18,536 nucleotides of DNA, taken from contig JAOZPP010000071.1 of assembly GCA_029932675.1 (NCBI GenBank), positions 1-18,536 of the forward strand. The letters are read 5' to 3'. Each line of letters begins with the position of its first letter. Position 1 is the stretch's first letter. A model generated the notes under the pieces. That model ran no database searches. It saw only the letters and a program-made list of their open reading frames with translations, and was not told the DNA's origin. The translations under genes were made by a program, and so were the position numbers. Source of the DNA: a bacterium. Lineage in GTDB: Bacteria; SM23-81; DAOVCL01. Positions 219 to 18,375 of the stretch are shown one piece after another.

Positions 219-1274
219 TTACCTTCTCCCAAATACCCTTTGGATTAGCCTTACCCTCTGCTTGGTCACTATCATTGCCCTGCCGGAGAGGCCAGGTTTT
301 AAGGGGAGTTGGGTGGAGCTTGCCTTGACCCAGGGGTCGGCTATCCTTAGCTTTACCTCAAAGGCGATTCCCCTTTTGGTAAGTTTGGGTTTGGGGGAGA
401 TGCTCACCACTTCCCCCTTGAAGACCTTATATCTACGATGGGGGAAGGCATTGATGAAGATCCGCGCCTCCTGTCCGGGTTTTATATCTGGTATATCAGC
501 CTCTCCCACCTCCCCAATGAAGTTCACCCCTGAAAGGTCTCCTATCTCCAAGATTGGTTCCCCCTTAGTTGCTTTTGTTCCCACCAACTCCTCCACTTTA
601 GGGGTCAAGATCTCCCCGGAAATTGGGGCAGTGATTACAGACTTCCTTAACTTCTCCATGGCTAACTCACATTCCCTCTTCGCCAGCGCGACTTCCTCTT
701 CTTTTTCCCTAATCCGCAGGAGGTAACGCCTTTTCAGTAGCTCTGCCCTCTCCTTTAACGCCCTATACTGGGATTGGAAGAGCTCATAGTTTAACCTTAT
801 ATCTTCCTTCTCCTCCAGGCTTATCAAATTTTCTTTGTATAATTTTTGTGCTCTCTCATATTTCTCCTTGGCAATTTCTGCCCTTCTCCTTGCTTGAAAC
901 AGATTGGCGAATGCAGAGGTTGTCTCAAATGATTTGCTCAGGATGAGGTTTTCATACTCCTCTTTGAGTTGGGAAAGGTCTGCTTGGGCCTGAGTAAGTG
1001 CCTGTTTTGTTCTCTCCACCTGAAGTCTTAGCTCTCGAACATCTAAAACCGCCAGAGTATCCCCTTTCTCAACCCTATCCCCTTCTTTAACCAATATCTT
1101 CTCTATGATCCCATCAACCTTTGGCTTAACTCTTTCATAATTTGCTGGCTCCACTATGCCAAAAGCCCTCACCGTCTCATCCATCCTCCCAAAGATGAGC
1201 ACGCTAAACCCCAGCAAGAGGATCATAATAGCTAAAAGGACTATATACCTAATCAGCCTAAACCTTCGCCTCAA
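219..1274 (-). CDS. HlyD-type membrane fusion (periplasmic adaptor) protein
   Basis: 351 residues. A basic N terminus (MRRRFRLIRY) and one membrane segment (about 10-28) anchor it in the inner membrane. A split lipoyl/biotinyl-like domain (VKPKVDGIIEKILVKEGD, later VITAPISGEIL) flanks a long, charged alpha-helical coiled-coil hairpin (about 80-215), and a beta-barrel region follows (about 250-340). These proteins link an inner-membrane exporter, often an ABC transporter with a peptidase domain in bacteriocin clusters, to the outer membrane. No transporter gene is in the window; it may lie to the left. The start is TTG overlapping the previous stop (TTGA). In context it should export the modified peptides (inference). 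Confidence 0.88.
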   Translation of the reverse strand: MRRRFRLIRYIVLLAIMILLLGFSVLIFGRMDETVRAFGIVEPANYERVKPKVDGIIEKILVKEGDRVEKGDTLAVLDVRELRLQVERTKQALTQAQADLSQLKEEYENLILSKSFETTSAFANLFQARRRAEIAKEKYERAQKLYKENLISLEEKEDIRLNYELFQSQYRALKERAELLKRRYLLRIREKEEEVALAKRECELAMEKLRKSVITAPISGEILTPKVEELVGTKATKGEPILEIGDLSGVNFIGEVGEADIPDIKPGQEARIFINAFPHRRYKVFKGEVVSISPKPKLTKRGIAFEVKLRIADPWVKASSTQLPLKPGLSGRAMIVTKQRVRLIQRVFGRR

Positions 1275-2047
1275 ATCCCTTCCTTCTCCAGGATAAAGCT
1301 CACCAAACTCCTCGCCATCTTCACCTTTCTTTCGGCCCCATTCCTATCTATCCCCTGCACTCCCTGAAGGGCCGCGAACTCCTCCGCCAGGGGGGAGGAG
1401 AGTTGGGATCTCAACTGAGGGTAGAGATCTGATAATTTCGAGAATGTACGGGACTTTTTCGTCAGCAAGAGCAATTGCAAAGCGTGCCAGAGGATCTGCC
1501 TTGAGTTAAGCAGGCTTTTCCTATACTTCCCCTCATCCAATAATCGCCCCATTAAATCGATCTCTAACCTTAAGCCCTCGATCTCCCTACCGATGAATAG
1601 CTTTGCTGGTCTTATCCCCTGCAAACCCTCCTTCAATTGACTCAGGATTCCCTCCCTCTCATAGAGGATTACAACCTCCCTTAGCTTGTGAAGATCAAAT
1701 ACGGTAGGCCACCCCTGGTATCCTCTTTCCAAGGCCAATTGAAGGGAGTGAAGGGGGAAGAATGCTATCTCCAATCTTCTCCCCACTTCGCTGAAAGGGG
1801 GGAGTTGATGATGATAGAAGGGTTCTCTTCCACCAGGGATGAGGACAGCGAGATGGAGGTCGCTTGTGGGGGAGACCCGGGAATATTCGAAGGGGCCGGA
1901 AAGCCATATTGCCAGGATATCATGCTCTTTTCTGAGGTGCTCGGCCACTTTCCTGCCATCTTCTATATATTTCTCCCGGAGGGAAGGGAGGGAGTGAAGG
2001 GGGAGTTCCTCCTCTCCACTATGATCTTTCCAAAAGGAACTGAGCAA
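1271..2047 (-). CDS. Third nucleotidyltransferase-fold paralogue (partly degenerate)
   Basis: 258 residues, with the same architecture as the two proteins at 7534-6007: a nucleotidyltransferase-like N-terminal half, then a helical domain starting near LFIGREI. The GS motif reads SGPFEYS (50-56) and the DxD pair reads Asp63-Leu-His65, so one metal ligand is changed and activity is doubtful. Its start is TTG at 2047, supported by an excellent ribosome site (AGGAGG, 6 nt away) lying within the end of the ATP-grasp gene. The TGA overlaps the TTG start of the HlyD-like gene. Three copies in one operon, only one with complete catalytic residues, suggest a hetero-oligomer or a division between catalysis and substrate handling (inference). 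Confidence 0.72.
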   Translation of the reverse strand: MLSSFWKDHSGEEELPLHSLPSLREKYIEDGRKVAEHLRKEHDILAIWLSGPFEYSRVSPTSDLHLAVLIPGGREPFYHHQLPPFSEVGRRLEIAFFPLHSLQLALERGYQGWPTVFDLHKLREVVILYEREGILSQLKEGLQGIRPAKLFIGREIEGLRLEIDLMGRLLDEGKYRKSLLNSRQILWHALQLLLLTKKSRTFSKLSDLYPQLRSQLSSPLAEEFAALQGVQGIDRNGAERKVKMARSLVSFILEKEGI

Positions 2048-2957
2048 GCTTTCCTCCTATATCCGCCCCCACTTGGGTATCATAGGGTCTGAAGAAAGGG
2101 GCAGAGTTACACTCTAAGAAGTAGTATTCACCACTGGATTGATCCCATTGGAGGTCCACGCCAGAAAAGATCATCCCAAAGGTCTTTGCTGCCCGCACTA
2201 TCTCATCCTCCATCTCAGGAGGAAGGTCGATTTTTTTCATATACTCTATATGCTCGCTGGCATCAACCCCCTTCTCTTTATGGGGGAGTTCACAGGCTAA
2301 GATGAGTTCATCCCCCAGAACAAAAGCCCGAACGCTCCTTCCTCGAATAAACTCCTGATAGATGATGGGTTTCTTCCTCAGGTTATCCCGTGTTGCCTCA
2401 AGCCCCGCTAAATTGGCCCTCTGAACCTGTCCTTTAATGAAGGGTTTCTGCACGGCCTCTTTCCCCTCTAAAAAGGATTTAAGGTTAAAGTAGTTGTTCC
2501 CTGCCTTAAACCCAGGAACCTTAAAACCGTTCTCTTTTAAGATCCAGAACTGATGGAGCTTTAGGTGGTGGTACCCCCAGGAATTGTAGGGGTTGATGAC
2601 CAGTTTCCTTTCACAGAGGATCCTCACCAAGGAGTGTTTAAAGGAGAGGATAGCGCGGATGTTGGCCATATAATCGTTGAACTTCTCGTAGAAATTGGCC
2701 CATTCCTCCCTAGTGAACTCCCTGCGTGGCAGGGGCCACATACCTGCAACCCTCCTGAGGTAGAAGCCATCAAAATCGAGGAGGTTCATCCCATCGAAGA
2801 TTACCCTATCTATTGTAATGGAGGCCTTGACTACCGAGGGGAAGAGTCCTAAGTCGATGACCCTGGCCTCCCCTCCCCTATCCTCGATCTTTGCCTTGAG
2901 CTCCTGGACGTCTGCATCGGTATGAGGGCCGAAGATGCCTATTCTTTTTCGCGCCAT
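2019..2957 (-). CDS. RimK-type ATP-grasp ligase
   Basis: About 312 residues; ATG 2957 is preferred to an in-frame GTG at 2963 because GAGG lies 8 nt upstream. ATP-grasp motifs, numbered from the GTG, are intact: Lys173 in QKPFIKG, YQEFIRG (202-208) at the adenine site, and the metal ligands Asp270 (GVDLQW) and Glu284/Asn286 (FLECNSAP). Such enzymes activate a carboxylate as acyl phosphate and join it to an amine or other nucleophile; in peptide clusters they form macrolactams or esters or add amino acids. The acidic tails of the two precursors (DPDG...E) offer carboxylates, so side-chain ligation is a reasonable guess. It overlaps the following gene by 29 nt. Confidence 0.88.
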   Translation of the reverse strand: MARKRIGIFGPHTDADVQELKAKIEDRGGEARVIDLGLFPSVVKASITIDRVIFDGMNLLDFDGFYLRRVAGMWPLPRREFTREEWANFYEKFNDYMANIRAILSFKHSLVRILCERKLVINPYNSWGYHHLKLHQFWILKENGFKVPGFKAGNNYFNLKSFLEGKEAVQKPFIKGQVQRANLAGLEATRDNLRKKPIIYQEFIRGRSVRAFVLGDELILACELPHKEKGVDASEHIEYMKKIDLPPEMEDEIVRAAKTFGMIFSGVDLQWDQSSGEYYFLECNSAPFFRPYDTQVGADIGGKLAQFLLERS

Positions 2958-3071
2958 TGCCACTGCCTCATAGTTAGAGCTTTAATCGGAATGCTCGGCT
3001 TTCTCAGGGGAATGCCCTTTACCTGAATTATTCATGAACTAATAGAATTTCGTAAAGACCCCGAGGTACAT

Positions 3072-3968
3072 CTAATCAGCGATCTCCACCAGGTATCTGG
3101 CCAGGGATTCAGAGATGGGTAGTCCGTGAGCCTTCTCCAACTCAAAGAAGTTAGGAGAGGGATCAACCTGGAGGAACCAGACCCTTTTCTCTTTGGCAGT
3201 ATATAAGAGCTGGACCTCAGCAAACGCGGCTCCCATAGCCTTTGCTGCCTCCAGGATACCCCCCCTTATTTCTTCTGGAAGTTCCTGCGACTCTACCTTC
3301 CTTGGTGCACCTCCATCCCCGGGGATCTCAACTGTCACCTCCAACAGACTCTCCCCTAAGACGATGCCCTTATAAGTAGTGCCCTCAGGTTTCTTCCTCC
3401 AAATCCTCACCTCCCCCTTCCCCTCCTTAGGGAAGGAGAGCACATCCCAGATCCTTTCCTCATCCAAGTTCAAAGGGAGCTCTTCCTGGAACCCTGTGAC
3501 CTCAAGGTCTTCCTCAACCCCGCTGATAAAAGGTGGGACCGAAAATCCCCTTTGAGCTAATAGGGAGAGGTGGAAGGGGAGCTGACGACGGTGGGAGTAG
3601 ACCTGAGGGGGATTAACCATTGGTTTTTTGTAGGCCAAAATCTCCAGGAGGTTACGTGTAAAGAGGATATTTTCCCTCTCCTCGGCCTCAAAGGAGAGGT
3701 ATCTCTCCCGCAGCATCGCCCAGAGCTGTTTGGTATAGGTGACGTGAAAGAAAGGGGCCCTTATCTCCATCTCCCGGAGATAAAAGCTCCCCATCTCAAA
3801 TAGGTTGTAACCGTCATAGACTATTCCCTGGTAGTCGATGGTTGCTGTGGTTACCTGGGGGAGAGACTTTAGATTGATGGTTATCGCCTTATGGCCTAGG
3901 TCTTCTATTTGCCGCTTAAGCAGGCCTAAACATCTATCGTATTCGCCCCCCAACAGACCTATTATCAT
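3072..3968 (-). CDS. Degenerate ATP-grasp-like protein
   Basis: 298 residues, a divergent paralogue of the ATP-grasp protein encoded next. Similarity is clear in the N-terminal domain (IVYDGYNLFEMGSFYLREME against VIFDGMNLLDFDGFYLRRVA), the middle (YKKPMVNP against ERKLVINP) and the C terminus (VWFLQVDPSPNFF against YYFLECNSAPFF). The metal-binding E-x-N is changed to Q-V-D (267-269), the upstream Asp is Glu251, and the KPFIKG and YQEFIRG nucleotide-binding segments are absent. It is probably not an active ligase and may form a heterodimer with its intact neighbour (inference). ATG 3968 follows the kinase stop by 12 nt with a poor ribosome site. About 115 nt of sequence without a recognisable signal separates it from the next gene. 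Confidence 0.75.
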   Translation of the reverse strand: MIIGLLGGEYDRCLGLLKRQIEDLGHKAITINLKSLPQVTTATIDYQGIVYDGYNLFEMGSFYLREMEIRAPFFHVTYTKQLWAMLRERYLSFEAEERENILFTRNLLEILAYKKPMVNPPQVYSHRRQLPFHLSLLAQRGFSVPPFISGVEEDLEVTGFQEELPLNLDEERIWDVLSFPKEGKGEVRIWRKKPEGTTYKGIVLGESLLEVTVEIPGDGGAPRKVESQELPEEIRGGILEAAKAMGAAFAEVQLLYTAKEKRVWFLQVDPSPNFFELEKAHGLPISESLARYLVEIAD

Positions 3969-3980
3969 AAAAAGTCCGTA

Positions 3981-4658
3981 TCAATGTTGAGCAGGGACCA
4001 AGACCGTCCCCTTTTCTTTAAGTTTCTCCTCCACATAATGGAAGATCAATTTGCTCTGTTCTAAGAGGGGGAGGCGACCATCGATGATAACTCCTCCCTC
4101 TTCCCTCATTAGCTTGCGCAGTTCTTCCCTTACCTTACCCTGAAAATCAATGAAGGATGATTCTTTGTCCGTGCCTCTTTTCACATCCAGTCCCGCTTCA
4201 TAGAAGGAGATCTCCCTATAATTTGTTATCCTCTTCAACGCGATCTGAGGGGGAACATCAAGGAGGATCTTTAAGTCCGGTTCAGGAGCAAATTTGAAGA
4301 CCGTCTTCAGCCACTGTTTGTTCAGGCCGCGGGCGATCCCTTGGGCGATTATCTTGTAGATATACCTGTCCCCGATGACGATCTCCCCCTTCTCCAACCA
4401 GGGCTTGATCATACTCTCTAACCTATTGGAGATGTCCGCACCTAAAAGGAAGGTGCGGGCCTCAGGAGGAATAATCACACTCCCTTCGTGGATCCTCTTT
4501 ATGAGGTCGCCTATGTACAGCCTCTCAATGTAGAGTGAATCCTTCCACCGGGAAACATTTACCACCAAGCCTCTTTGGGAGAGCTTCTTCTCCAGCAGAG
4601 TTACCTGAGTAGACTTTCCACAGCCGTCTATCCCATCTATGACAATGAAGGATCCCAT
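3981..4658 (-). CDS. Thymidylate kinase-like P-loop kinase
   Basis: 225 residues from the preferred ATG at 4658, 2 nt after the radical SAM stop; an in-frame TTG at 4691 lies inside that gene and has no ribosome site. Walker A is GIDGCGKST (9-17, Lys15), the nucleotide-binding DRY is at 97-99, and LDVPPQIALKRI (133-144) is typical of thymidylate kinases. The chain is somewhat longer than the usual 205-215 residues, with an unusual segment around 146-175. Its place inside a peptide-modification operon suggests a specialised kinase, perhaps providing a nucleotide for the nucleotidyltransferase or phosphorylating a cluster substrate, rather than the housekeeping dTMP kinase (inference). A moonlighting or duplicated housekeeping tmk is the alternative. 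Confidence 0.8.
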   Translation of the reverse strand: MGSFIVIDGIDGCGKSTQVTLLEKKLSQRGLVVNVSRWKDSLYIERLYIGDLIKRIHEGSVIIPPEARTFLLGADISNRLESMIKPWLEKGEIVIGDRYIYKIIAQGIARGLNKQWLKTVFKFAPEPDLKILLDVPPQIALKRITNYREISFYEAGLDVKRGTDKESSFIDFQGKVREELRKLMREEGGVIIDGRLPLLEQSKLIFHYVEEKLKEKGTVLVPAQH

Positions 4659-4660
4659 CA

Positions 4661-6010
4661 CTAAAATGGCGTTACGTTTTTCTTGCGGCAAGCATTATCA
4701 AAGATTTGGGCATAATAGAACCTCAGATCTTCACAGTCGCTACAGGGTCCATCTAAGGCTCCATTGGTGAGATAGGCATCAGCCCGGCACCCCCCTCCGC
4801 AGAGGTACTTGGCAGGACAGCTTCGGCAACACTCTATCTCCTCTACAGTTGTGTTCCTGAAGAAGTTGTATATCGAGGAATTCTCCCATACCTCCTTGAG
4901 TTTATCCTTCCGCACATTGCCGAGGACGAATTCCTTCTCCCCGCAGAGAAGGGAACAGGGGATTATATCGCCATTATAGGAGACCTGGATGAAGGTCCTG
5001 CCGGCGCCGCAGGGGAGAGAGCCCACCCTATCCCCTAATCCAGTGAGGAGGGGTTGGTTGTATTTAGGGTTGACCTTCATCCCCTTCTCGCGCACTTCGA
5101 TCGCCTTCCGGTAAAGCGTCTTATATGCGGAGGCCATCTCCTGAGGTGAAGGATAGGCTATAGCCTCCTGTCCTTTGGCCCTGCCAGCTATCCTCACTTT
5201 GCCAAAGGCGATCTCCTTCGCCCCCAGCCTTAGCCCGAGCTCCACCATGGCTTCTATGTCCTTTATATTGTGTTTGTTGATGACAAAGGCAAACCGGAAG
5301 GGGATCTCATATTTATTTAAGAGCTTCACCCCCTCCATTGTCCTGGCAAAGGAACCTTCTCCTCTATTCCAGTCATTTATCTCCGGTGAACTGCCGTCTA
5401 AACTCACCTGGACGAGGACATCCAATTCCTTCATCCTCTTGGCCGTATCTTCAGTCAGGGTAAGCAAGCTCGTCGATATCCCCCCAGTCAACCCCCGTTT
5501 TATCGTTATATATTCCAAGATCTCCAGCAGGTCCCCTCTGGTCAAGGGATCACCTCCAGAGAGGGCAATGAATTCAACCCCCATTTCCGCCATCTGATCG
5601 ATGACCCCATAGATCTCGTCTAAGCTGAGGGTGTCGGGCTTCTCCTCCCCTGAATCTACATAGCAGAGCCGGCAGCGGGTGGAACACTTTCTGGTGACCT
5701 CTACAAAGCCAAGGTTGGGCTGGGGCATCCCTTCTCCTTCCGGCTGGGCCTCCCCTAACATTCTGTGGCGCTTCAGTCGGTCGAAGAAGCTAACAAATCT
5801 GGCAGCAGCCTCATAAGGATTGATCTTTAACTCCTCTGAAATGAGGTCGATTAACCTCTCCTCATCCTCCTCGCGGTCCATGAGTTCTATTACCTTAAAG
5901 CCGGCCTCATCGGTAACAAACTTACCGCCCCAATATGGGTTGGCGAAGAAATGGATACCATCCCTGGTGTGGTGAACCCTCTTCTGGGGGAGCCGTTGTA
6001 AACCCCTCAT
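4661..6010 (-). CDS. PqqD-radical SAM-SPASM peptide-modifying enzyme
   Basis: 449 residues. Residues about 10-85 form a PqqD-like domain (FVTDEAGFKVIELMD), the usual recognition element for precursor peptides. The radical SAM core follows with CSTRCRLCY (Cys109, 113, 116 binding the SAM 4Fe-4S cluster) and the GGDP motif (152-155). A C-terminal SPASM domain has auxiliary-cluster cysteines: Cys334, 352, 356, 394/395, 398, 404, 408, 423, 426. SPASM enzymes modify ribosomal peptides by forming crosslinks or altering side chains through a 5'-deoxyadenosyl radical. The natural substrates are the two small peptides encoded about 1.6-2 kb upstream. The start overlaps the previous stop as ATGA. It should require anaerobic or microaerobic conditions. 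The reaction type cannot be deduced from the sequence. Confidence 0.93.
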   Translation of the reverse strand: MRGLQRLPQKRVHHTRDGIHFFANPYWGGKFVTDEAGFKVIELMDREEDEERLIDLISEELKINPYEAAARFVSFFDRLKRHRMLGEAQPEGEGMPQPNLGFVEVTRKCSTRCRLCYVDSGEEKPDTLSLDEIYGVIDQMAEMGVEFIALSGGDPLTRGDLLEILEYITIKRGLTGGISTSLLTLTEDTAKRMKELDVLVQVSLDGSSPEINDWNRGEGSFARTMEGVKLLNKYEIPFRFAFVINKHNIKDIEAMVELGLRLGAKEIAFGKVRIAGRAKGQEAIAYPSPQEMASAYKTLYRKAIEVREKGMKVNPKYNQPLLTGLGDRVGSLPCGAGRTFIQVSYNGDIIPCSLLCGEKEFVLGNVRKDKLKEVWENSSIYNFFRNTTVEEIECCRSCPAKYLCGGGCRADAYLTNGALDGPCSDCEDLRFYYAQIFDNACRKKNVTPF

Positions 6011-6777
6011 CTTGACCCTTCCTCCCCTTCGGACCCGAAGATGTGCTCTGGGTTGACTCCAATCTCTCGGAGCGTATATTCGGCGAATTTCCTGGCTCTT
6101 GTCGCGTTATCCTTCGCTATGCTCAGGTCAACCCCCCTTATATCCAAGATCTCCTCGTAGAGAGCGAACTGCTCAGGGGGGAGAAGCTCCTCAGCGGCCT
6201 CCAGGAAGGAGATATCCCCCTCCTGCATCCTCTCTCCAACTACTATGCCAACTGCCTTAGTAACTGCCTCCCTGGCCACCAAAACGGCGTTTAGGTAGTC
6301 GCCGTTCCGCAAGAGGGAAAAGGCATCATCGAGGGCCGAAACAGCTCCGTGCAGGCTCTCCCCAATGAACCGCTTCTTAGGGATATGTCTCTTTGCCCCC
6401 TCAATCATCTCCCGGCCCACCCCATCCTTTTCCCAGAGGACCCGACCACAACGGAAGGCCTCTAAGGACTTATAGGAGACCATATCGGTGTAACCGTTCT
6501 GGAGGAGATACCTGGCCACCTTGAGGGGGAACTTCCCCATCTCAATTGGCCTCTTCACCTCTCCCCATCCTTCATCTAAGAAGTGATGTTCTATTATGCC
6601 ATCATCTTTGTTGGTAATGACGGCAAAATAGAGCTTGTGGGATTCCGCGACCCTTCCCAGGGCCAATGGGCCACTTAAGATCACGGCCAGAGTGGAAGGG
6701 TCCCCTCTGAGCTCTTTGGCTATATACTCCGCCTCTTTATACAGAATCCCTCTCAGTTCCTTATCCTCTTCATTCAT
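6007..6777 (-). CDS. Degenerate nucleotidyltransferase-fold paralogue
   Basis: 256 residues, clearly related to the gene just upstream in length, domain order and the helical domain beginning near RFIGESL. The catalytic motifs are lost: SGPLALG (35-41) replaces TGSAAWG and HKLYF (47-51) replaces DLDIL, removing both metal-binding aspartates. It is therefore likely non-catalytic, perhaps a structural partner or substrate-binding subunit of the intact paralogue (inference). ATG 6777 lies inside the end of the upstream gene, and its TGA overlaps the ATG of the radical SAM gene (ATGA), so all three are translationally coupled. Peptide recognition is a conceivable role but nothing in the sequence proves it. 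Confidence 0.7.
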   Translation of the reverse strand: MNEEDKELRGILYKEAEYIAKELRGDPSTLAVILSGPLALGRVAESHKLYFAVITNKDDGIIEHHFLDEGWGEVKRPIEMGKFPLKVARYLLQNGYTDMVSYKSLEAFRCGRVLWEKDGVGREMIEGAKRHIPKKRFIGESLHGAVSALDDAFSLLRNGDYLNAVLVAREAVTKAVGIVVGERMQEGDISFLEAAEELLPPEQFALYEEILDIRGVDLSIAKDNATRARKFAEYTLREIGVNPEHIFGSEGEEGSR

Positions 6778-7534
6778 AGTTCACCAGATCTGGGGAGATA
6801 GACCACCGCTGGAGAAACCTTTTCATAAAATCAATGGTGCTCCCCACTGTGCGGCGAGCCTCTTTCTCCCCAATTCCTTTGATCCCCAGCAACCTTTCAT
6901 ACTCTGCGGTTTCCATCTCATTTAAGCATCTCCTCACCGCCCTATACTCATGTTTCTCCTTTGCTATCCCTGTCCTTTCTCTGGCCAGGAGAAGAACCCG
7001 CACGGAGAGCTGAACCATTCGCCGGATGGCCAAGGTTGCCCCTTTGGTATGGCCTTGGTCAATGTTCCACTTAATTTCCCGTAAAACCCCCCTAATATTA
7101 TTGAGGAGCTCCCCGATGATGAGCCTGCTGGGCTGTATCCTCCGGCAGCTATCAATTAGATCATCCCCTTGAGAGCCCCTTTGAAAAAGCACTCTCCCAT
7201 GCTTAAGCTGCTCTATGAGACTACAACTTAGCTGGTTTCTATGGCCCTCCTTGATCTTCTCCACTGCCGTTCTATAGGGTATATAACCCAGTTCGGTGCG
7301 TCGTGGGACAGGGCAGAATTTGGGGACGAGATAGCGATAGACTACCCCCCTCTGCTCGTGGGCAATGAGGAGGATGTCCAGGTCCCCAGCGGGGTTTGGC
7401 TTCCCCCAGGCAGCAGACCCGGTGAGGATGGCGGCTAAGATGTTGCTGTCCTCCTCCACCCCGCTGATCGAGCCCTTGGCCTCCTGAAGGAATTGCTCCC
7501 GCAGATTTTCTTGGGCTTGATTGGATTCTATCAT
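6770..7534 (-). CDS. Nucleotidyltransferase-fold protein with helical C-terminal domain (intact motifs)
   Basis: 254 residues. The N-terminal half is a nucleotidyltransferase domain of the MNT/kanamycin-nucleotidyltransferase type: LTGSAAWG (38-44) is the GS motif and Asp51-Leu-Asp53 the metal-binding pair, with Glu81 a candidate third acid. The C-terminal half (about 130-245) is all-helical and HEPN-like. Such enzymes transfer a nucleoside monophosphate to a hydroxyl or protein side chain; the substrate here is unknown, perhaps the peptide or a small-molecule partner. It is the first enzyme gene after the precursors, with ATG 7534 and no good ribosome site. It overlaps the next gene by 8 nt. 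Two paralogues in the same cluster (6777-6007 and 2047-1271) share the helical domain (R-LIIGELL / RFIGESL / LFIGREI) but have damaged active sites. This is probably the catalytic member. Confidence 0.8.
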   Translation of the reverse strand: MIESNQAQENLREQFLQEAKGSISGVEEDSNILAAILTGSAAWGKPNPAGDLDILLIAHEQRGVVYRYLVPKFCPVPRRTELGYIPYRTAVEKIKEGHRNQLSCSLIEQLKHGRVLFQRGSQGDDLIDSCRRIQPSRLIIGELLNNIRGVLREIKWNIDQGHTKGATLAIRRMVQLSVRVLLLARERTGIAKEKHEYRAVRRCLNEMETAEYERLLGIKGIGEKEARRTVGSTIDFMKRFLQRWSISPDLVNYE

Positions 7535-7544
7535 AATTAGCTGA

Positions 7545-7584
7545 AGAAGGACGAGGGACTTTAATGGAACTCCCCCGTCCTTCT
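7545..7584 (-). other. Hairpin between peptide gene B and the biosynthetic genes
   Basis: AGAAGGACGaGGG (7545-7557) pairs with CCCcCGTCCTTCT (7572-7584), with one mismatch and a 14-nt loop. It starts 28 nt after the peptide stop, like the hairpin after gene A. It lacks a T-run, which fits partial termination or processing that would give more precursor than enzyme mRNA (inference). Confidence 0.55.
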
Positions 7585-7612
7585 CCCCCAGTGGGTTAAC
7601 CGTTGTGGTCTC

Positions 7613-7717
7613 CTACTCCTCTGCGAGGAGATAATCGCCACCGTCTGGATCATACGGCGGCCATGGTTTAGGCTTCCACGGAGGTCCCGGTTCGCCCTTG
7701 TTGCACCACATAGCCAT
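7613..7717 (-). CDS. Small peptide precursor B (putative RiPP substrate, 34 aa)
   Basis: A 34-residue peptide gene: MAMWCNKG, then EPGPPWKPKPWPPY, then DPDGGDYLLAEE and TAG. Its ribosome site AAAGGAGGTGA and ATG context match those of peptide gene A almost base for base. The variable core is rich in Pro, Trp, Lys and Tyr, and aromatic and lysine side chains are common targets of SPASM radical SAM enzymes that make side-chain crosslinks (family knowledge); which are used here is unknown. The only cysteine (Cys5) is in the conserved N-terminal block. The DPDG(G)D...E tail could bind a metal ion, a guess from the spacing of acidic residues. Downstream is a hairpin and then the biosynthetic genes. 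Confidence 0.82.
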   Translation of the reverse strand: MAMWCNKGEPGPPWKPKPWPPYDPDGGDYLLAEE

Positions 7718-7819
7718 TCCCACTCACCTCCTTTCGTTTTTCCCTTCCAACCGCCTCTCCCAGGAAATGATCGATCCCTTTAGGATTACCTAGGGTAGTC
7801 GGACTGGAAGGGCTTTTAC

Positions 7820-7855
7820 GAGGGCGGAGGAGCAGGGGAAGACTCCTCCGCCCTC
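7820..7855 (-). other. Long GC-rich hairpin after peptide gene A
   Basis: A perfect 13-bp stem (7820-7832 with 7843-7855, GAGGGCGGAGGAG and its complement) with a 10-nt loop starts 33 nt after the stop codon. No T-run follows on the minus strand, so it is more likely an RNA-stabilising or partial-termination element than a full terminator. Confidence 0.6.
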
Positions 7856-7888
7856 TTCCCTTTCTGGGGCACTTATCCAGGGGGCCTC

Positions 7889-7987
7889 TTATTCGTAGAG
7901 GATAGCATCCCCATCTGGATCCGGTGGAGGCGGAGGCGGAAACCCTGGTTTGATGATCGCCGGCCCCTTATTGCACCACATAGCCAT
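7889..7987 (-). CDS. Small peptide precursor A (putative RiPP substrate, 32 aa)
   Basis: A 32-residue peptide gene, reading MAMWCNKG, then PAIIKPGF, then six prolines, then DPDGDAILYE and TAA. It has a near-perfect ribosome site (AAAGGAGGTGA) 7 nt before ATG. The strong evidence is the sister gene at 7717-7613: identical first eight residues, the same ribosome-site block at the same distance, a proline-rich middle and the same acidic DPDG tail, while the middle differs. That is the pattern of paired precursor peptides, with conserved recognition regions and variable core. It lies just upstream of a PqqD-radical SAM-SPASM/ATP-grasp cluster. I do not recognise the peptide family. Which residues are modified, and whether the conserved N terminus is a leader, cannot be told. 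Confidence 0.82.
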   Translation of the reverse strand: MAMWCNKGPAIIKPGFPPPPPPDPDGDAILYE

Positions 7988-9376: not shown

Positions 9377-10927
9377 CTAATGAGATATGTAATAGATTAG
9401 GATGCCAGCCAAACAGAGGAACATTATCCCCATCCCCAGCTTTACCCCCTTCCCCTTGCTTTTCCAGAACTCGGTCAACCTCTCTGAGGTCATCCCTTTA
9501 TAGGCGAGAAGGAAGATGACCACCAGGGGGAGGATAAAGCAGAGGTTATAGAAGAAGAGATAGAAGAGGGCCTTGGCCTTCAGGGCAGGCACTTTGGTGA
9601 CGAATATGATGGTGGGTAGATAGACCTGGCCAGTGCAGGCGAACTCCAGTATGGAGATAAAAAATCCAGTAACTAAGGCAGCAAGGACATAGTTTTTCGC
9701 GCGGGAACGGGTGCGCACCGCCTGGTGGACCCTTTTATGGAGAAAGTCAGGGAGCTTTAATATAGACTCCTCATATTCGCCCCCCCGGTATTTAGCATAG
9801 TCATAAAAGCTTAAAACTGCTAAGACTATGGCTCCCCCAGCGGTGAGCATATAGACTATCCGGGCCACATAGGGCATAAAGCTCAGGGATTGAACGAACT
9901 TCAGCAACCCCAGCCCCACCAAAAAGTAGGTTATGAACACGGCCAGGGTAAAGGCGGACCCCACGGCGAGGAGTTCCTTCCCCTTGCGGCCTACAAATGC
10001 TAAGTAGGAGATGAAGAAGACTATAGTGACAAAGGCACAGGGGTTTACCCCGTCTAAGAGGCCAGCGGAGATGACTGTGGTTATCTCTAATCCCTTAAAC
10101 CTGCTGATTATTTTCTTCTCCGCTTTCTGCAACTCCTCGCGGGCTAACTCCCAGGGGGGAGATGTCCCAGTAGCATTGTATTTTTCTATGAGTTTCTCTA
10201 AGTTTTTATCATTTACTTCCTTGCCCAATAGGTAATCTCTTCCAATAAAGGCTTCTGGGGTGGACATCCTTTGGGGCTCAGGGACATTGTATATCTCCCC
10301 TAAGGCCTCAGCCAACTTCTTGCTCTCTGGATCCAGGATGTTATACTTTCTCACCACCAGATTGGGATATTTAGCTCTTAGAAACTTCATTTGATACTCG
10401 GCCCTATCACACTCCTTACAGCCGAACTTATAGAAATAGGCCAGATAGACCTGTCTCTCTTCCTCAACTGGTGGGGATTTCGCCCCCTCGTCTTCCCCCC
10501 AGAGGGGCTTAGATGTATAGACCCCGCCCTTAGTAAGTTCTAAATGAGGGAAAGGGACTCCAGTGGGAGAATATAGGGAAAGCACCTCTTCCAGTTTCTC
10601 CTCTACCTCCTTGTTGCTGAGGAGGAAATCTCCAATGACAAAGACCGGAATTCCATTGTCCTCTTTTTTATAAGCTTCTTCCATATTGAGCAACACCTGA
10701 TAGTTGTCCGGGTTATTAATCTCAAAGTATCGCCACTGTAGCCTGTCCCCATAGGTGGACTCAATCTTAGGCAAGAAATCTTCGATGATGTGGTGACAGT
10801 CCTCACAATCCCGACCGTAGAAGACATAGATGGAAAGCTCCCTTTCTCCCCCGTTAATCCCGGAGACTTCTCCAGAAACCATAAAAGAGAAGATAAATAG
10901 AAGCGAGATAATCTGTTTTATTCTCAA
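9377..10927 (-). CDS. Thioredoxin-like/CcdA (DsbD-type) thiol-disulfide membrane protein
   Basis: About 516 residues. A signal peptide/anchor is followed by two thioredoxin-like domains outside the membrane with active sites FYGRDCEDC (Cys41/Cys44) and FYKFGCKEC (Cys170/Cys173). A multi-span CcdA/DsbD-like domain comes next, with the conserved paired cysteines in GVNPCAF (Cys297) and EFACTGQVYLPT (Cys431). Such proteins carry reducing equivalents from cytoplasmic thioredoxin across the membrane to exported thiol proteins. Lying 15 nt after the selenocysteine lipoprotein gene, it probably keeps that protein reduced (inference). The start is likely TTG at 10927, right after GGGAGGGGGA; an in-frame TTG at 10939 lacks a ribosome site. 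The domain order, two thioredoxins before the membrane part, differs from classical DsbD, whose thioredoxin domain is C-terminal. Confidence 0.88.
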   Translation of the reverse strand: MRIKQIISLLFIFSFMVSGEVSGINGGERELSIYVFYGRDCEDCHHIIEDFLPKIESTYGDRLQWRYFEINNPDNYQVLLNMEEAYKKEDNGIPVFVIGDFLLSNKEVEEKLEEVLSLYSPTGVPFPHLELTKGGVYTSKPLWGEDEGAKSPPVEEERQVYLAYFYKFGCKECDRAEYQMKFLRAKYPNLVVRKYNILDPESKKLAEALGEIYNVPEPQRMSTPEAFIGRDYLLGKEVNDKNLEKLIEKYNATGTSPPWELAREELQKAEKKIISRFKGLEITTVISAGLLDGVNPCAFVTIVFFISYLAFVGRKGKELLAVGSAFTLAVFITYFLVGLGLLKFVQSLSFMPYVARIVYMLTAGGAIVLAVLSFYDYAKYRGGEYEESILKLPDFLHKRVHQAVRTRSRAKNYVLAALVTGFFISILEFACTGQVYLPTIIFVTKVPALKAKALFYLFFYNLCFILPLVVIFLLAYKGMTSERLTEFWKSKGKGVKLGMGIMFLCLAGILIYYISH

Positions 10928-10942
10928 TCCCCCTCCCAATCT

Positions 10943-11947
10943 TTAACGATCCATTTCCTTGGCCCTTTTTCGGCCAGAGATCTTTTGTTTCTCCTTATAC
11001 TCACGCAGCAACTTTAAAATATCAGGATCACCTTTGATCTTCTCATCCAGGAGGCAAGAACGGGATTCGATGGAATGCAGCCTCCCTTGAGGGTCCAAGG
11101 AGAGGATTAGATCCCCCGCATAATAGCTTTTTGAACCCACAACGGCCAGATAAGTCCTCCCCACCTTCTTCGGTTCTCCTTCAACCGATCCCACTCTCCC
11201 TCCAATTATCAGGTCAATTCCCTCCACTTTCTTGGCCAATTCCTGAGATTGGCTCCGCTCCAAATCGGTGAGCATGATCACCAGATCACATCTTCCCCTC
11301 AGCTTGTTTACCATATGGCGAGCTGTCTCGAGAGGATCGTCCACCACCAAGGGTCTATCCTCCCCTTGGGGTTTGATCCGTTCGATTGGTTCGGGGCTAG
11401 CCACCCCAAATATCCCCACCTTGAGTCCACCATATCCAATACCCAGGAAGCTCTTCCCCCCATACCTCTTCACTATGTAAGGCCGGGCAAAATGCGACCT
11501 CGTATCCTTATACCTGATGTTGGCTGAAACAAAGGGGAGTTTGTACTTATCCTGCAAGTCCTTGAGAAATCTCTCCCCCAAAAAGAAGTCCCAGCCGGCC
11601 ACATTTATGGCATCATATCCCAAGAGGGACATTCCTTGAGCCATATAATCTGCCTTCAGCTTGCTGGTCCTTGCCCCATAACAGAGAAATTGCCCTGCAT
11701 CGAGGATCAGCAGGTATGCATCCTCAGCCCTGTTATCCTTTATATATGTGGCTCGCCGAGCCAGCCCGCCATAATCATGGCGATGTCCTCAGGTTGGACA
11801 GGGCTCAAGATAGCCCCACATATTCCCCGAGTAAATAATCTGGACCTTCTCTTTTACCTCCTCCCCTGTGCTACAAGCAGAGAGGAGGCCCAAGGCCAAA
11901 AACAGAAGAAAGAGGCCGAAATATCCTTTTTTGGCATCCGAGATCAT
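10943..11947 (-). CDS. UshA-like lipoprotein with in-frame UGA (putative selenoprotein)
   Basis: A 334-residue paralogue of the protein at 13639-12599, again readable only through one TGA (11791-11789, residue 53). ATG 11947 overlaps the arsR stop (ATGA) and begins a lipoprotein signal peptide with lipobox LLSAC (lipidated Cys25). The order is IIYSGNMWGYLEPC, then P-T-U-G, then GGLARRATYI, LLILDAGQF, LLGYDAINVAGWDF, IGYGGLKVGIFGVASPEP and EGIDLIIGG. The UGA lies 2 residues after the Cys50 of an LEPC motif, giving a Cys-x2-Sec arrangement. A SECIS-like hairpin follows. AGWD replaces the NHE metal ligands of true 5'-nucleotidases, so the domain may have a redox or binding role rather than phosphatase activity (inference). 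The downstream CcdA/DsbD-like gene is a plausible electron donor. A double nonsense mutation is the less likely alternative. Confidence 0.85.
11749..11763 (-). promoter_or_regulatory. SECIS-like hairpin, second selenoprotein gene
   Basis: TGGCTC-GGC-GAGCCA forms a perfect 6-bp stem with a GGC loop, starting 25 nt after the UGA (loop at 32 nt). Relative to the paralogue, a U-A pair replaces a C-G pair, so the stem is conserved by compensation. A second hairpin, CGCCAT-GATT-ATGGCG (11782-11767), lies closer to the UGA. Confidence 0.65.
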
Positions 11948-12598: not shown

Positions 12599-13639
12599 TT
12601 ACTTCCTCTTAATCACCCCGCCCTTATCTCTGCGGGGAAGTTTCTTCGGTGGTGGGGAAGGGGCCTTCTTTTTCCTCCCTTGTTCCCTCTTCGCCCTCCT
12701 CCTTACTTCTTCCTTGTACTCCTTAACAAGCTGCGCTATCCGTTTATCATCAGAGAATTTGTTGTCCAAAAGCACCAGGGAGCCGTTTGAGCTACTCACC
12801 CCTCCCTGGGGGTTGAGACGGAGGTCGAGCAAACCAACATTTTTACCCCGAGAGCCTGGTTGCACAATAAGGGTGTGATTGACCTGTAAGGGATTCCCCC
12901 GTTTGCCCCCCCCTCCCCCAATGATCAAATCAATTCCCTCCACCTTTTGGGCCAACTCCTTCAACCCTTGCATATCCATTTGGGCCAGAGCCACTACCAA
13001 ATTGCACTTTCCCCTTAGCTTGCGTACCACCCTCTTCGCCTCTTCCACAGGGTCTTTAACTACTATTTTTCTGTCTCGCCAATCAGTAGGCTTGGGGGAG
13101 AAGACCTTAGAGAGGCCAAATATTCCTACCTTTATCCCCCCATACCCAAAGCCCAAGAAGCCATTGCCTCCCACCCTCCTGATCAAAAACCGATGAGCAA
13201 AAGGGCGGTTGGTATCCCCATAGTAGATATTCGCTGAGACAAAGGGAAGTCTATATTTATCCTTAAGCTGGGCCAAGAACCGCTCCCCAAACCCGAAGTC
13301 GGAACTCCCTAAATTCAAGGCATCATAGCTGAGAACCGAGAGCATCTTGGCCAGATATTCTGATTTCAGTTTAGCGCCTTTGCCCCTCCCCGCGAAGTTG
13401 TTCCCAGCGTCTAAGAGCAGGGGGAGATACCTTGGAAGACTCTTCTCTTTGATGAAACTGGCCCGCCGGGCCAGACCGCCTGTGCGGTTACAGCCTCACC
13501 CAGAGGGAACCAGGTTGGAGAGGGTGTTCCCCGTGTAGATGATTCGTAGGCTATCCCCTTCTCCCCAGGCGGAAGTAGTAAAAAACAGGAAAAGGATAAA
13601 AATTATTAAGGGCAAAAGCCCGGCCTTCAACCTTGACAT
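12599..13639 (-). CDS. Exported UshA-like protein with in-frame UGA (putative selenoprotein)
   Basis: Read through one TGA (13498-13496), this is a 346-residue protein of the UshA-like metallophosphatase/5'-nucleotidase family. ATG 13639 sits 7 nt after GGAGG and begins a signal peptide (hydrophobic 8-20, likely cleavage after TTSAWG). Family landmarks run in one frame on both sides of the TGA: IIYTGNT before it; GGLARRASFI, LLLDAGNNF, LSYDALNLGSSDF, FGYGGIKVGIFGL and EGIDLIIGGG after it. The TGA codon (residue 48, context PSG-U-GC) falls where related proteins carry the cysteines of an EPCGC motif. A SECIS-like hairpin starts 21 nt after it. The NHE metal-ligand motif of true phosphatases is replaced by SSD, so phosphatase activity is doubtful. 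The C terminus is strongly Lys/Arg-rich. Without recoding, translation would stop after 47 residues. A nonsense mutation is the alternative, but the paralogue has TGA at the same site. Confidence 0.82.
13458..13474 (-). promoter_or_regulatory. SECIS-like hairpin, first selenoprotein gene
   Basis: CTGGCCC-GGC-GGGCCAG forms a perfect 7-bp stem with a 3-nt loop starting in G. The loop begins 29 nt after the UGA, within the usual 16-37 nt window for bacterial SECIS elements. The paralogue has the same loop and a compensated stem. Confidence 0.65.
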
Positions 13640-15185: not shown

Positions 15186-15288
15186 TGCTACATATTTCAG
15201 CAGGGGTAAATAGAGGGTGATGTAATTTGGCGGGATATAAAAGGTTAGGTTATGCAGAAATTTCAGCGGGGCTGCGGAAGAATTCAGC
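15186..15288. promoter_or_regulatory. Candidate enhancer (UAS) sites for the sigma-54 activator
   Basis: Upstream of the sigma-54 promoter there are three imperfect dyads: TGCTACATATTTCAGCA (15186-15202), TGCAGAAATTTCAGC (15253-15267) and GCTG-N10-CAGC (15271-15288). All share a TTCAGC half and lie 90-200 bp from the promoter, a normal distance for activator binding. The last overlaps the end of the regulator gene. The sites differ by a base in spacing, so this is only a suggestion. Confidence 0.3.
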
Positions 15289-16628
15289 GTTTTTCAATAT
15301 GAAACCTCTTTATCTTGCTGGAGAGGGTGTTCCTGTCGATCCCCAATATCTTAGCTGACTTGGATATATTCCAGTTGTTCGATTCCAGGACACGCTGGAT
15401 GTGTTCCCTCTCCACTTCGCGAAGCTGCATACTGGAGCTGGGCCTGAACTTTTCTTCTCTACGAAAAGTCAGAGGGAGGTCTTGGGGGAGGATCATTCTG
15501 CCTTTAGTTATTACCACAGCCCTTTCTATTACGTTCTCTAACTCGCGCACATTGCCGGGCCAATCGTATTTCATCAGGAGAGCGAAGGCCTCCTCTGATA
15601 GCCCATCTATTTCTTTTTTGTTTTCAATGCAGTATTTTTTTAAGAAATGCTGGACAAGGAGAGGTATGTCCTCCTTCCTATCGCGCAAGGGAGGCAGTTG
15701 AATGGAGACCACATTTATCCTGTAGTATAAATCCTCCCTAAACCTTCCTTCTTCCACTAATTTCTTTAACTCCTTGTTGGTGGCAGAGATAATCCTGACA
15801 TCAGTTTTAATTAAGGCTGTCCCCCCTACCCGCCGGGAACTTCTCCAATACTCGCAATAGGTCCACCTGGGTTTTAGGACTTATATCACCAATTTCGTCA
15901 AGGAAAAGGGTCCCCTTATTGGCAAGCTCAAACCTCCCTTTCTTGGTAGAGACTGCACCGGTGAAAGCTCCCCTTTCATGACCAAAGAGTTCACTTTCGA
16001 GGAGATTTTCAGGTAGGGCCGCACAATTCACGGCAACAAAGGGGCCTTCATTCCTCAGGCTGCTATTATGGATTGCGCGGGCAACGAGCTCCTTCCCGGT
16101 ACCGGATTCCCCTTCGATAAGAATCGTAGAATTGCTTTTTGCCACTGTCTTTACCAAGGCAAAAACCTCTTGCATTTTATGGCTTTTCCCAATAATGTCC
16201 TTGAACTGGTATTTCCTCTCCAATTCCTGACGGAGGTATAGATTCTCTTTAACCAAGTCCTGATAGGCAATTATCTTTCTGATGGCTAGTCCTATCTCTT
16301 CCGGATTGAATGGTTTAACAATATAGTCATAAGCGCCTTTCTTCATCGCTTCCACGGCACTATCCACAGTTGCATACGCGGTCATTATAATTACTGGTAT
16401 TTCCTCATTATATCCCTTGACTTTCTCCAACACCTCAATCCCATCCATCCCCGGCATTTTTAAGTCCACTAACAACACGTCCCATCTCTCCTCCCGCACT
16501 CTTTGTAATGCTTGCGCGCCATCTCCCACTGCCTCAACCTCATACCCATCTTCCATTAACCATGCAGAGAGCGAATCGCGCATAACTGCTTCATCATCAA
16601 CTATCAAGATATGTACATCTCCCCTCAT
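15284..16628 (-). pseudogene. NtrC-type sigma-54 response regulator, frameshifted
   Basis: A two-component regulator that should activate sigma-54 RNA polymerase. From the start at 16628 (ATGA overlap with the upstream gene; an upstream in-frame codon at 16670 is less likely) come a receiver domain (Asp11/Asp12, phospho-Asp55), an AAA+ domain with Walker A GESGTGKE, the sigma-54 contact loop GAFTGA and Walker B LFLDEIGD. The frame then runs into a stop at 15807. The rest of the AAA+ domain (RFREDLYYRINV, WPGNVRELENVIERAV) and a Fis-type helix-turn-helix (residues NISKSAKILGIDRNTLSSKI) continue in another frame to 15284. Deleting one C from the CCC at 15835-15837 restores [18 protein letters not shown], although about two residues of the usual LEEGEFRRVGG segment also seem missing. 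Both halves look well conserved, so an assembly error or very recent mutation is likely. Confidence 0.85.
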
Positions 16629-17185
16629 TCTGTCACCTTTGGTTTCTTCTCTGACAATAGTATTGAACAACTATCACAGAATTTATCGCTCTTTGTATCT
16701 ATGTTTTTAACGCTATTTGAAAAGTACATCACACATTTTGGGTCTAAACAATGGGTCAACCCGAATGTATGGCCCAGCTCATGTAAGGCCTCCTTAACCG
16801 CTCTCTTTAACAAAAGTGGAGGATTTGGAGGCAATCCATAGTACTCTTGATGCAAACGGCGTAATGAAATTAGGGCCGCCTTACCACCTAATTGGGCTTC
16901 ACCAAAGACAAAGGTCAAAATGGGTGTACACAGATCGAGATCGACTATTCCCAGTATTTTGATTAAATCCTCTGAAACTGGATGTGCTTGCGCTTTATTC
17001 AATATCTCTCTCAAGATTTTGGCTGAGGAATACTGGCCTCGTTTGGGCTCAAAGGCGTAGGAAGGCTCCCCTATGCTCTCCATAATTTTACATCGGTAGT
17101 TGAGTTTTAAGGGTATCTCCTCTGCCACATACTTCAAGGTGGCTGGGTTTACTAACCCGATGGGCAAGATATAGATCCACTTCAC
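16625..17185 (-). CDS. amzA: Archaemetzincin-family zinc metalloprotease
   Basis: A 186-residue protein of the archaemetzincin (archaelysin) family, zinc-dependent peptidases common in archaea and scattered in bacteria. The diagnostic motif is complete: [12 protein letters not shown] (135-146) supplies zinc ligands His135, His139 and His145 and catalytic Glu136. It is followed by Cys151, Met153 (the Met-turn) and the CxxC pair Cys170/Cys173 that, with Cys146 and Cys151, forms the family's structural second zinc site. There is no signal peptide, so it should be cytoplasmic. The start is GTG at 17185, 35 nt after the kinase stop with only a weak ribosome site. Its stop overlaps the response-regulator start as ATGA, implying translational coupling. 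A protease between a sensor kinase and its regulator is unusual. The substrate is unknown. Confidence 0.9.
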
Positions 17186-17220: not shown

Positions 17221-18375
17221 TCAAACAGTAGGGATCTTGATGGTAAAAGTGGTGCCCTTCCCCACTTCGCTTTTTATATAGATCTGGCCGCGGTGATCCT
17301 TAATTATCCCTTGGACTATAGAAAGGCCTAAACCAAGGCAGGTATCCCCTCTTTTACACTTTGTGGTGAAGAAGGGATCGAAAACCTTGGGAATATCTTC
17401 TTCAGGGATACCGCATCCCGTATCTGAGACATCTATCCTCACAAAACCTTCCCTCCCAGGTTCTCCTTCTAATGCCGTTTTTATCTCCAGCCTCCCCCCT
17501 TTGGGCATGGCTTGAATAGCATTCATTATGAGGTTCATAAATACCTGTTGAAGTTGTCCGAAGTCGCCCATTACCTCTGGAAGCGCTGGCTTAAGCTCCC
17601 TCCTCACCTCCACATTGCCAATTTTGAGTTGATCATTTAGGAGGACCAGACTGTGTTCTATTACCTCATTGATATGGATGGGCCTAATATCGGGCTCGGC
17701 CCGTCTGGAGAAATCCAATAAATTTTTTGTTGTCCTCCCGACACGCTTGGTCTCCTTTTCCATTATGAGGAGATATTTCTTAAAGTCTTCAACCACAGAA
17801 GGGAGATCCCCCTTCTCTAACTTCCTCAAAAGCAGTTTGATATAGGTCAGAATTCCGTTGATCGGGTTGTTTATCTCATGTGCTACTCCGGCGGCGATCT
17901 GTCCCATCATAGTGAGTTTATCCGTATGGATGAGTTGATTCTGCAAATTCTTTAGTCCGCTGATATCTCGGAAAATTTCTACCATTCCCACTATCTTAGC
18001 TTCATGGTCTTTCAAGGGGAAAGCAGTAATATTGACAGGAATGGGTTTGCTGGCTTTACAATGGAATTGAAGTTCTATATCGCATACTGATGTTCTCTTC
18101 TTAAGTATCTCCTTAAAGCAACAACGCTGCTCACATAGCGGACTCCTAAATACTTCCTGACAGACCCTCCCCACCACCTCAGAGGCACTATACCCAGTTA
18201 TCTTTTCTGCTGCTTTGTAGAAGAGAGTTATTCGTTTCTGACGATCAACTATAAAGACTCCTCCCTGCATATTGTAGAGGAGACCCTCTATGAAACTCCT
18301 CATCGTGAAGGGGTCTAAACCCACTGCTGGTTTTTCGAGCCTTTCTATTTGCGGGACTTCTTTCACCTTTGCCAT
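17221..18375 (-). CDS. Cytosolic PAS-domain sensor histidine kinase (NtrB-like)
   Basis: A 384-residue sensor kinase with no membrane segment or signal peptide, so it should sense an intracellular signal. A PAS domain (about 25-140) is followed by HisKA with the phospho-accepting His166 in AHEINNP, and an HATPase_c domain with N box NLIMNAIQAM (281-290), G1 DTGCGIP (318-324), F box FDPFFTTK (332-339) and G2 GLGLS (348-352). The PAS domain carries a cysteine cluster (Cys72, 81, 85, 86, 98, 106), and two further cysteines (340, 346) flank the ATP lid, which suggests redox or metal sensing (inference). The ATG start follows AGGGGTAA. It is the first gene of a unit with the archaemetzincin and the sigma-54 response regulator, its presumed phosphorylation partner. 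The signal is unknown. Confidence 0.93.
   Translation of the reverse strand: MAKVKEVPQIERLEKPAVGLDPFTMRSFIEGLLYNMQGGVFIVDRQKRITLFYKAAEKITGYSASEVVGRVCQEVFRSPLCEQRCCFKEILKKRTSVCDIELQFHCKASKPIPVNITAFPLKDHEAKIVGMVEIFRDISGLKNLQNQLIHTDKLTMMGQIAAGVAHEINNPINGILTYIKLLLRKLEKGDLPSVVEDFKKYLLIMEKETKRVGRTTKNLLDFSRRAEPDIRPIHINEVIEHSLVLLNDQLKIGNVEVRRELKPALPEVMGDFGQLQQVFMNLIMNAIQAMPKGGRLEIKTALEGEPGREGFVRIDVSDTGCGIPEEDIPKVFDPFFTTKCKRGDTCLGLGLSIVQGIIKDHRGQIYIKSEVGKGTTFTIKIPTV

Follow-up and report, generated by a model that had tools for sequence, protein, structure and literature searches.

A candidate hybrid peptide-modification operon with two small precursors, degenerate enzyme copies and kinase-like and nucleotidyltransferase-fold proteins

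Contig JAOZPP010000071.1, from a bacterium in a poorly characterized phylum (GTDB lineage SM23-81; DAOVCL01), harbors an operon that very probably produces a pair of small and extensively modified peptides. The stretch analyzed here, hereafter the window, has 18,536 nucleotides and is an entire contig, taken from a genome assembly of 3.03 Mb that is 97% complete. The assignment of the operon to ribosomally synthesized and post-translationally modified peptides (RiPPs) is well supported, since it draws on the coding signature of two tiny genes (pepA and pepB), on a radical S-adenosylmethionine (SAM) enzyme with a complete SPASM domain and a RiPP recognition element (RRE)-like domain, on a ligase of the graspetide type, and on the arrangement of all of these in one operon with an HlyD-type protein. 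A multi-step ribosomal peptide pathway had been proposed in the original prediction, which was made from the nucleotide sequence alone, and the same evidence upholds that proposal.

Counted from the promoter side, the genes follow the order pepA, pepB, NT3, NT2, the PqqD-like/radical SAM/SPASM enzyme, a thymidylate-kinase-like (TMK-like) protein, grasp2, grasp1, NT1 and HlyD, where NT stands for nucleotidyltransferase fold and grasp for ATP-grasp fold (Table 1). The eight genes after pepA and pepB are tightly packed on the same strand and reach the contig end. Overlapping or nearly touching gene ends had been predicted, and most junctions do overlap or touch, with the exception of a gap of ~108 nucleotides between grasp2 and grasp1. 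All the genes predicted downstream of the peptides exist as well, but pepA and pepB directly precede NT3 and NT2 and not the radical SAM gene. Because the contig ends just after HlyD, the operon is cut there and may continue, for example with an ABC transporter.

Table 1. Features of the putative peptide-modification operon, listed from the promoter side.
Feature	Position in window	Strand	Basis
pepA, putative precursor, 32 amino acids	7889..7987	-	ATG with ribosome site AAAGGAGGTGA; MAMWCNKG and DPDG common to pepB
Stem-loop after pepA	7820..7855	-	Perfect 13-bp stem, no T-run; RNA fold z -3.4 (7780-7890)
pepB, putative precursor, 34 amino acids	7613..7717	-	Same basis as pepA
Stem-loop after pepB	7545..7584	-	17-nt arms, 88% complementary; RNA fold z -4.8
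NT3, aminoglycoside nucleotidyltransferase (ANT)/kanamycin-nucleotidyltransferase-like, HEPN-like C-terminal bundle	6770..7534	-	GS...D50xD52 kept; weak Pfam Polbeta/NTP_transf_2
NT2, NT3 paralogue (~24%)	6007..6777	-	GS and DxD lost (SGP...KLY)
Radical SAM/SPASM enzyme, N-terminal PqqD-like (RRE) domain	4661..6010	-	Pfam Radical_SAM 5.8e-28, SPASM 1.8e-11, PqqD 1.5e-4 (N-terminus)
TMK-like protein	3981..4691	-	Start TTG 4691 or ATG near 4657; Pfam Thymidylate_kin 1.6e-23
grasp2, grasp1 paralogue without ATP-grasp catalytic residues	3072..3968	-	Paralogy E 9e-24; residue table
grasp1, graspetide-type ATP-grasp ligase	2019..2963	-	7drm 1e-18; catalytic residues kept
NT1, third NT paralogue, partly degenerate	1271..2047	-	SGP...DLH
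HlyD-type membrane-fusion (export) protein	219..1274	-	Pfam HlyD_D23 1.3e-18, HlyD_3 2.9e-15

It is very likely that pepA (MAMWCNKGPAIIKPGFPPPPPPDPDGDAILYE) and pepB (MAMWCNKGEPGPPWKPKPWPPYDPDGGDYLLAEE) are precursors of a modified peptide. A direct repeat of 44 nucleotides (93%) covers the ribosome site together with codons 1-8 (MAMWCNKG) of both genes; the sequences then diverge, and both carry DPDG. The pair of tiny genes is thus as predicted, with near-identical ribosome sites and with common blocks around divergent cores. Within the MAMWCNKG and DPDG blocks, the four base differences all fall at third codon positions and leave the amino acid unchanged, a pattern with a chance of ~6e-4 if changes were random, for blocks that were chosen post hoc. 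The common N-terminal start spans eight residues; in 15 shuffles of the window under an order-3 Markov model, the maximum was 5-6. Neither peptide contains Ser or Thr, leaving Tyr in the C-terminal half as the sole hydroxyl residue; in addition, there are one to two core Lys residues, tryptophan(s) and one Cys. Lys and the conserved DPDG are present in both, with a spacing that is unequal between the two peptides. No convincing copy of the graspetide leader motif Phhx(1,2)h or of a GG site was found on reading both sequences by eye.

Both open reading frames are rich in proline, with a strong stem-loop downstream of each, as might be expected if pepA and pepB were regulatory leader peptides (attenuators), with ribosome pausing at proline runs controlling the stem-loops and hence the operon. 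However, both stem-loops lack a T-run, and neither appears in the terminator list for the minus strand. Moreover, the amino acid conservation, with synonymous changes only, lies at both ends of the peptides and not in the proline run, and an RRE–SPASM enzyme and an ATP-grasp ligase require a peptide substrate, for which the operon as seen offered no better candidate. Attenuation is therefore very unlikely.

The radical SAM enzyme has its CxxxCxxC motif at residues 109-116 and SPASM-region cysteines at 334, 352, 356, 394/395, 398, 404, 408, 423 and 426. Taken in isolation, its N-terminus scores 22.5 bits against the PqqD model, just below the Pfam cut-off of 23.4, and two relatives that align along this region score 31.6 and 42.4 bits. 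Among curated models, the top score belongs to WgkB (NF050035; 171.7 bits against a cut-off of 650), and the best matches also include the mycofactocin enzyme MftC (TIGR03962; 2.2e-46, 158.6 bits against an equivalog cut-off of 265), PqqE (TIGR02109; 2.2e-41, 142 bits against an equivalog cut-off of 381.35) and StsB. All of them are far below cut-off, and so the family gives no reading of the reaction. By these scores we rejected membership in the WGK (Lys–Trp crosslinked) RiPPs and in the mycofactocin and pyrroloquinoline quinone (PQQ) families.

The gene for the TMK-like protein overlaps that of the radical SAM enzyme, and the latter gives weak matches to the PADLOC pVip models (43 bits). 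Both features could be accommodated by a radical SAM/kinase pair that makes a modified nucleotide in the manner of prokaryotic viperins, with NT3 attaching it to a peptide or to some other acceptor. We consider this extremely unlikely, as SPASM and PqqD-like domains mark peptide-modifying enzymes and a radical SAM core of any kind would likely reach 43 bits. The genome also encodes a second PqqD–SPASM enzyme (contig C103, locus L023, 534-1925) that is 27% identical to the one in the window and has a separate PqqD protein nearby (4023-4298); this region is possibly another, unrelated RiPP locus.

The match of grasp1 to the solved ATP-grasp structure 7drm extends over the full length, and a profile of the grasp1/grasp2 pair also matches 5ig9 and 7mgv (CdnC). 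We take 7drm and 5ig9 to be the graspetide macrocyclases PsnB and MdnC, respectively. In a residue table of 18 sequences, grasp1 retains the ATP- and Mg-binding residues K173, Q203-E204, R212, D270, E284 and N286. Single-copy relatives from bacterial genomes also retain them, apart from small differences at the E positions, and grasp2 has lost every one. Judged from these residues, grasp2 is probably a pseudoenzyme or partner subunit. The original prediction had correctly counted two ATP-grasp proteins but had overlooked this catalytic loss. Graspetide synthetases that depend on a partner protein do exist, with partners that are unrelated to grasp2 (PMC13097080).

Among NCBIfam models, grasp1 matches best that of the coenzyme glutamate ligase MptN (5.5e-14, 51.9 bits against a cut-off of 350). 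Taken together with the MftC and PqqE matches of the radical SAM enzyme, this match speaks for a redox-cofactor pathway of the PQQ or mycofactocin type, in which the precursor would be trimmed to a tiny core and decorated through glutamylation by grasp1, nucleotidylation by NT3 and phosphorylation by the TMK-like protein, so that the end product would be a coenzyme and not a peptide for secretion. PqqA and MftA are similar in length to pepA and pepB, the enzyme likewise pairs PqqD with SPASM, and coenzymes typically bear nucleotide tails. On the other hand, the three matches fall far under the equivalog cut-offs, and two different proline-rich precursors with a dedicated HlyD exporter better suit a secreted peptide. 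The PqqD-like domain is fused here, and other pathway genes are absent; the operon as seen contains the peptidase gene of neither pathway. Overall, a cofactor product appears quite unlikely.

NT1, NT2 and NT3 are mutual paralogues, and the GS...DxD motif is retained in one of the three, NT3. On the basis of this motif, NT3 is likely the active copy and NT2 is likely inactive. Three nucleotidyltransferase-fold proteins had been predicted and three are present; the loss of catalytic residues in NT2 and NT1 had been missed. Among the structural matches listed, where a family that does not appear is not counted as absent, the NT3 model resembles kanamycin/aminoglycoside and lincosamide nucleotidyltransferases (6un8, 1kan, 4ebk and 3jyy). 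PADLOC gave no match for NT1-3. An MNT-HEPN toxin–antitoxin system was also considered and rejected: NT3 has no RX4-6H RNase motif, and stray matches to it in NT1 and NT2 are not common to both. As for the TMK-like protein, the closest match is the archaeal thymidylate kinase 2plr (2.2e-31), and it is the second such copy in the genome, the other one, on contig C44, being 35% identical.

Producers commonly use such ANT-type enzymes for self-resistance, and aminoglycoside producers are protected by both ANT and kinase enzymes. The fold of NT3 would fit a similar role of the NT-fold and TMK-like proteins in self-protection or control, whereby they nucleotidylate or phosphorylate, within the producing cell, either the peptide or the target on which it acts. 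However, three NT paralogues, two of them degenerate, exceed the needs of simple resistance. Furthermore, NT3 and NT2 stand directly after the precursors, with NT2 overlapping the radical SAM gene, which is the usual position of biosynthetic or substrate-binding subunits. We regard a self-protection role as rather unlikely.

The claim that the gene set matches no named class was borne out in part. ATP-grasp, SPASM and HlyD proteins together with small precursors make up the graspetide toolkit, whereas we could place the TMK-like and ANT-like proteins in no RiPP locus. Many graspetide loci include genes for SPASM and HlyD proteins (PMC8939145). As in graspetide systems (MdnC, CdnC and PsnB ligases), small precursor genes, a SPASM enzyme and HlyD lie within one locus, and grasp1 is similar to the solved macrocyclases, with its catalytic residues kept. 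Unlike in those systems, the precursors are only 32-34 residues long and have neither Ser/Thr nor the leader and GG motifs known from graspetides, the second ATP-grasp protein is catalytically dead, and TMK-like and ANT-like genes are present. Although some graspetide branches also do without leader and GG motifs (PMC8939145), we do not classify the operon as a plain graspetide member. Another point of comparison is the lasso peptide pseudomycoidin, which is tailored by a kinase (PsmK) and a protein annotated as a nucleotidyltransferase (PsmN) (PMC9266682). In the window, however, there is no lasso machinery, the kinase is TMK-like and the nucleotidyltransferase is ANT/HEPN-like and present in three copies. 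In the literature we found no RiPP locus with either a thymidylate-kinase-like or an ANT-like enzyme, no report of a thymidylate kinase in a RiPP cluster among the papers listed, and no RiPP paper combining ATP-grasp, radical SAM and nucleotidyltransferase. The NT trio and the TMK-like gene set this operon apart from known graspetide-like loci, and its new elements are the paralogue sets with live and dead copies and the TMK-like and ANT-like accessory enzymes.

The ATP-grasp/SPASM/small-peptide core itself is a known kind of locus, as indicated by relatives in other genomes (loci L072, L073, L094, L076 and L077) and by the survey cited above (PMC8939145). A profile search of 386 genomes identified the closest ATP-grasp relatives in L072 and L073, which belong to two species of one genus (E ~3e-39). 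In both (L073, 10139-14080; L072, 173-3877), one tight operon holds a SPASM enzyme flanked by a degenerate and an intact ATP-grasp, with divergently encoded tandem small peptides next to it. The peptides of these clusters belong to another family than pepA and pepB: they are Cys-rich, with the motif LC[AG]LCSEDPxFCG (LCALCSEDPxFCG, for example). The clusters differ further in their SPASM enzyme, which is of the Clo7bot/TIGR04463 branch, and nothing in the part of them that was inspected matches the NT, TMK-like or HlyD proteins. In its own right, the L072/L073 operon looks like a separate RiPP family. L094 shows the same ATP-grasp/SPASM/ATP-grasp order with only a fragment of the upstream copy. 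Other grasp1 relatives are single-copy and lie beside graspetide-like precursors (L077, ...TTLAVGEEST; L076, repeated PIMK[IV]RAD).

A live and dead ATP-grasp pair with a SPASM enzyme is therefore found in at least two unrelated lineages, and this recurrence suggests that dead RiPP enzymes are kept as partners. In the tree, the two pseudo-ATP-grasps group together with a support of 0.915, possibly through long-branch attraction, and we do not claim a single origin. The tree also included the second gene of L037 as a candidate member of such a pair; it shows none of the motifs and is left out of the counts.

Considering all these data, we favor, with moderate confidence, a hybrid RiPP operon that combines radical SAM modification and a Lys–Asp/Glu macrolactam with a putative nucleotidylation or phosphorylation step, a chemistry read from the sequence. 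At the head of the operon stand the two precursor genes with their strong ribosome sites, and the stem-loop capping each of them may keep precursor mRNA in excess. The PqqD-like domain would bind the invariant MAMWCNKG, or else the radical SAM enzyme would act on W-C-N-K itself, forming a C–C or C–S link. Subsequently, grasp1 with ATP would activate a carboxylate of DPDG or the acidic tail and join it to a core Lys; as the cores have no Ser or Thr, the usual graspetide chemistry allows only Lys–Asp/Glu macrolactams. grasp2 could serve as a substrate-binding or stabilizing partner. NT3, aided by the degenerate NT2 and NT1, might then nucleotidylate the peptide, most plausibly at the Tyr of the C-terminal half, because ANT-fold enzymes need a nucleophile, usually a hydroxyl. 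The TMK-like kinase might phosphorylate the product or supply the nucleotide, and the product would leave through the HlyD system. The radical SAM and ATP-grasp steps are likely in kind; the substrate and purpose of the NT3 and TMK-like step are a guess.

Several points weigh against this hybrid pathway. There is no support from conservation between species for the peptides or for the gene set, as no orthologous cluster was found in the genome, viral, plasmid and phage collections searched. A scan for M-x-M-W-C-[NDSG]-K-G in ~85,000 GTDB r220 species genomes returned seven matches, all due to chance by their neighborhoods, and the MAMWCNKG-type motif was found in no other of these genomes. Within viral contigs, the pattern matched once in a phage-like region (L051) with no related gene seen, and there was no relative of the radical SAM protein or of the NT profile. 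Plasmids and phages yielded no NT3 relative and only distant ATP-grasp and radical SAM relatives. The NT profile gave a few weak generic-nucleotidyltransferase matches in the 386 genomes, with no RiPP neighbors in three regions inspected, and was negative in two further small phyla. Three relatives represented the same phylum; in the one of the same genus (G001), searches with the radical SAM enzyme, with the NT and ATP-grasp profiles and with the neighboring DUF92 gene all came back empty. Furthermore, the radical SAM enzyme lies on a different SPASM branch from that of L073, and its single-sequence AlphaFold model is too poor to use (predicted local distance difference test, pLDDT, 44); confidence in the NT3 model is modest (pLDDT 71). 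The precursors are very short and without graspetide leader and GG motifs, and no protease or ABC transporter gene was seen in the operon as far as the contig end.

A bolder reading, which we consider less likely than not, is that the operon represents a new class of RiPPs. In this view, the SPASM enzyme and a partner-dependent ATP-grasp would crosslink a tiny proline-rich peptide, which an ANT-fold enzyme and a TMK-like enzyme would then nucleotidylate and phosphorylate to give a ribosomal peptide-nucleotide natural product. The ANT-fold enzyme would be held in a complex with its two degenerate paralogues, and the ATP-grasp enzyme would need its dead partner. The operon joins two well-known peptide-modifying chemistries with thymidylate kinase and aminoglycoside-type nucleotidyltransferase folds, and could reveal a new type of peptide linkage or a peptide-nucleotide product.

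Elsewhere on the contig, two paralogous minus-strand proteins (10943-11947, with a lipoprotein-like start, and 12599-13639, with a signal-peptide-like start) share an IIYxGN...GGLARR motif. Each is interrupted by an in-frame TGA (11789-11791 and 13496-13498), placed almost identically in the two (EPCPT*GH and VPSG*GC). Since a tRNA-Sec is also encoded in the genome (contig C9, 77.5 bits, anticodon TCA), both are candidate selenoproteins. Neither has a Pfam match, even when read through, and 48-nt folds around the TGAs are unexceptional (z -1.6 and -0.9). A membrane protein (9377-10939, minus strand) shows by eye a CcdA-like membrane region and two segments resembling thioredoxin, with no Pfam model at cut-off. 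Further along, an NtrC-type regulator (15284-16670, minus strand) is split by a frameshift into a receiver plus sigma-54 AAA part (15807-16670) and an AAA lid plus Fis-type helix-turn-helix part (15284-15757); the frames join near 15800-15850, and the split reflects either a pseudogene or an assembly error. Between this regulator and an NtrB-like PAS histidine kinase (17221-18375) lies an archaemetzincin-like M54 metallopeptidase (16625-17185, minus strand).

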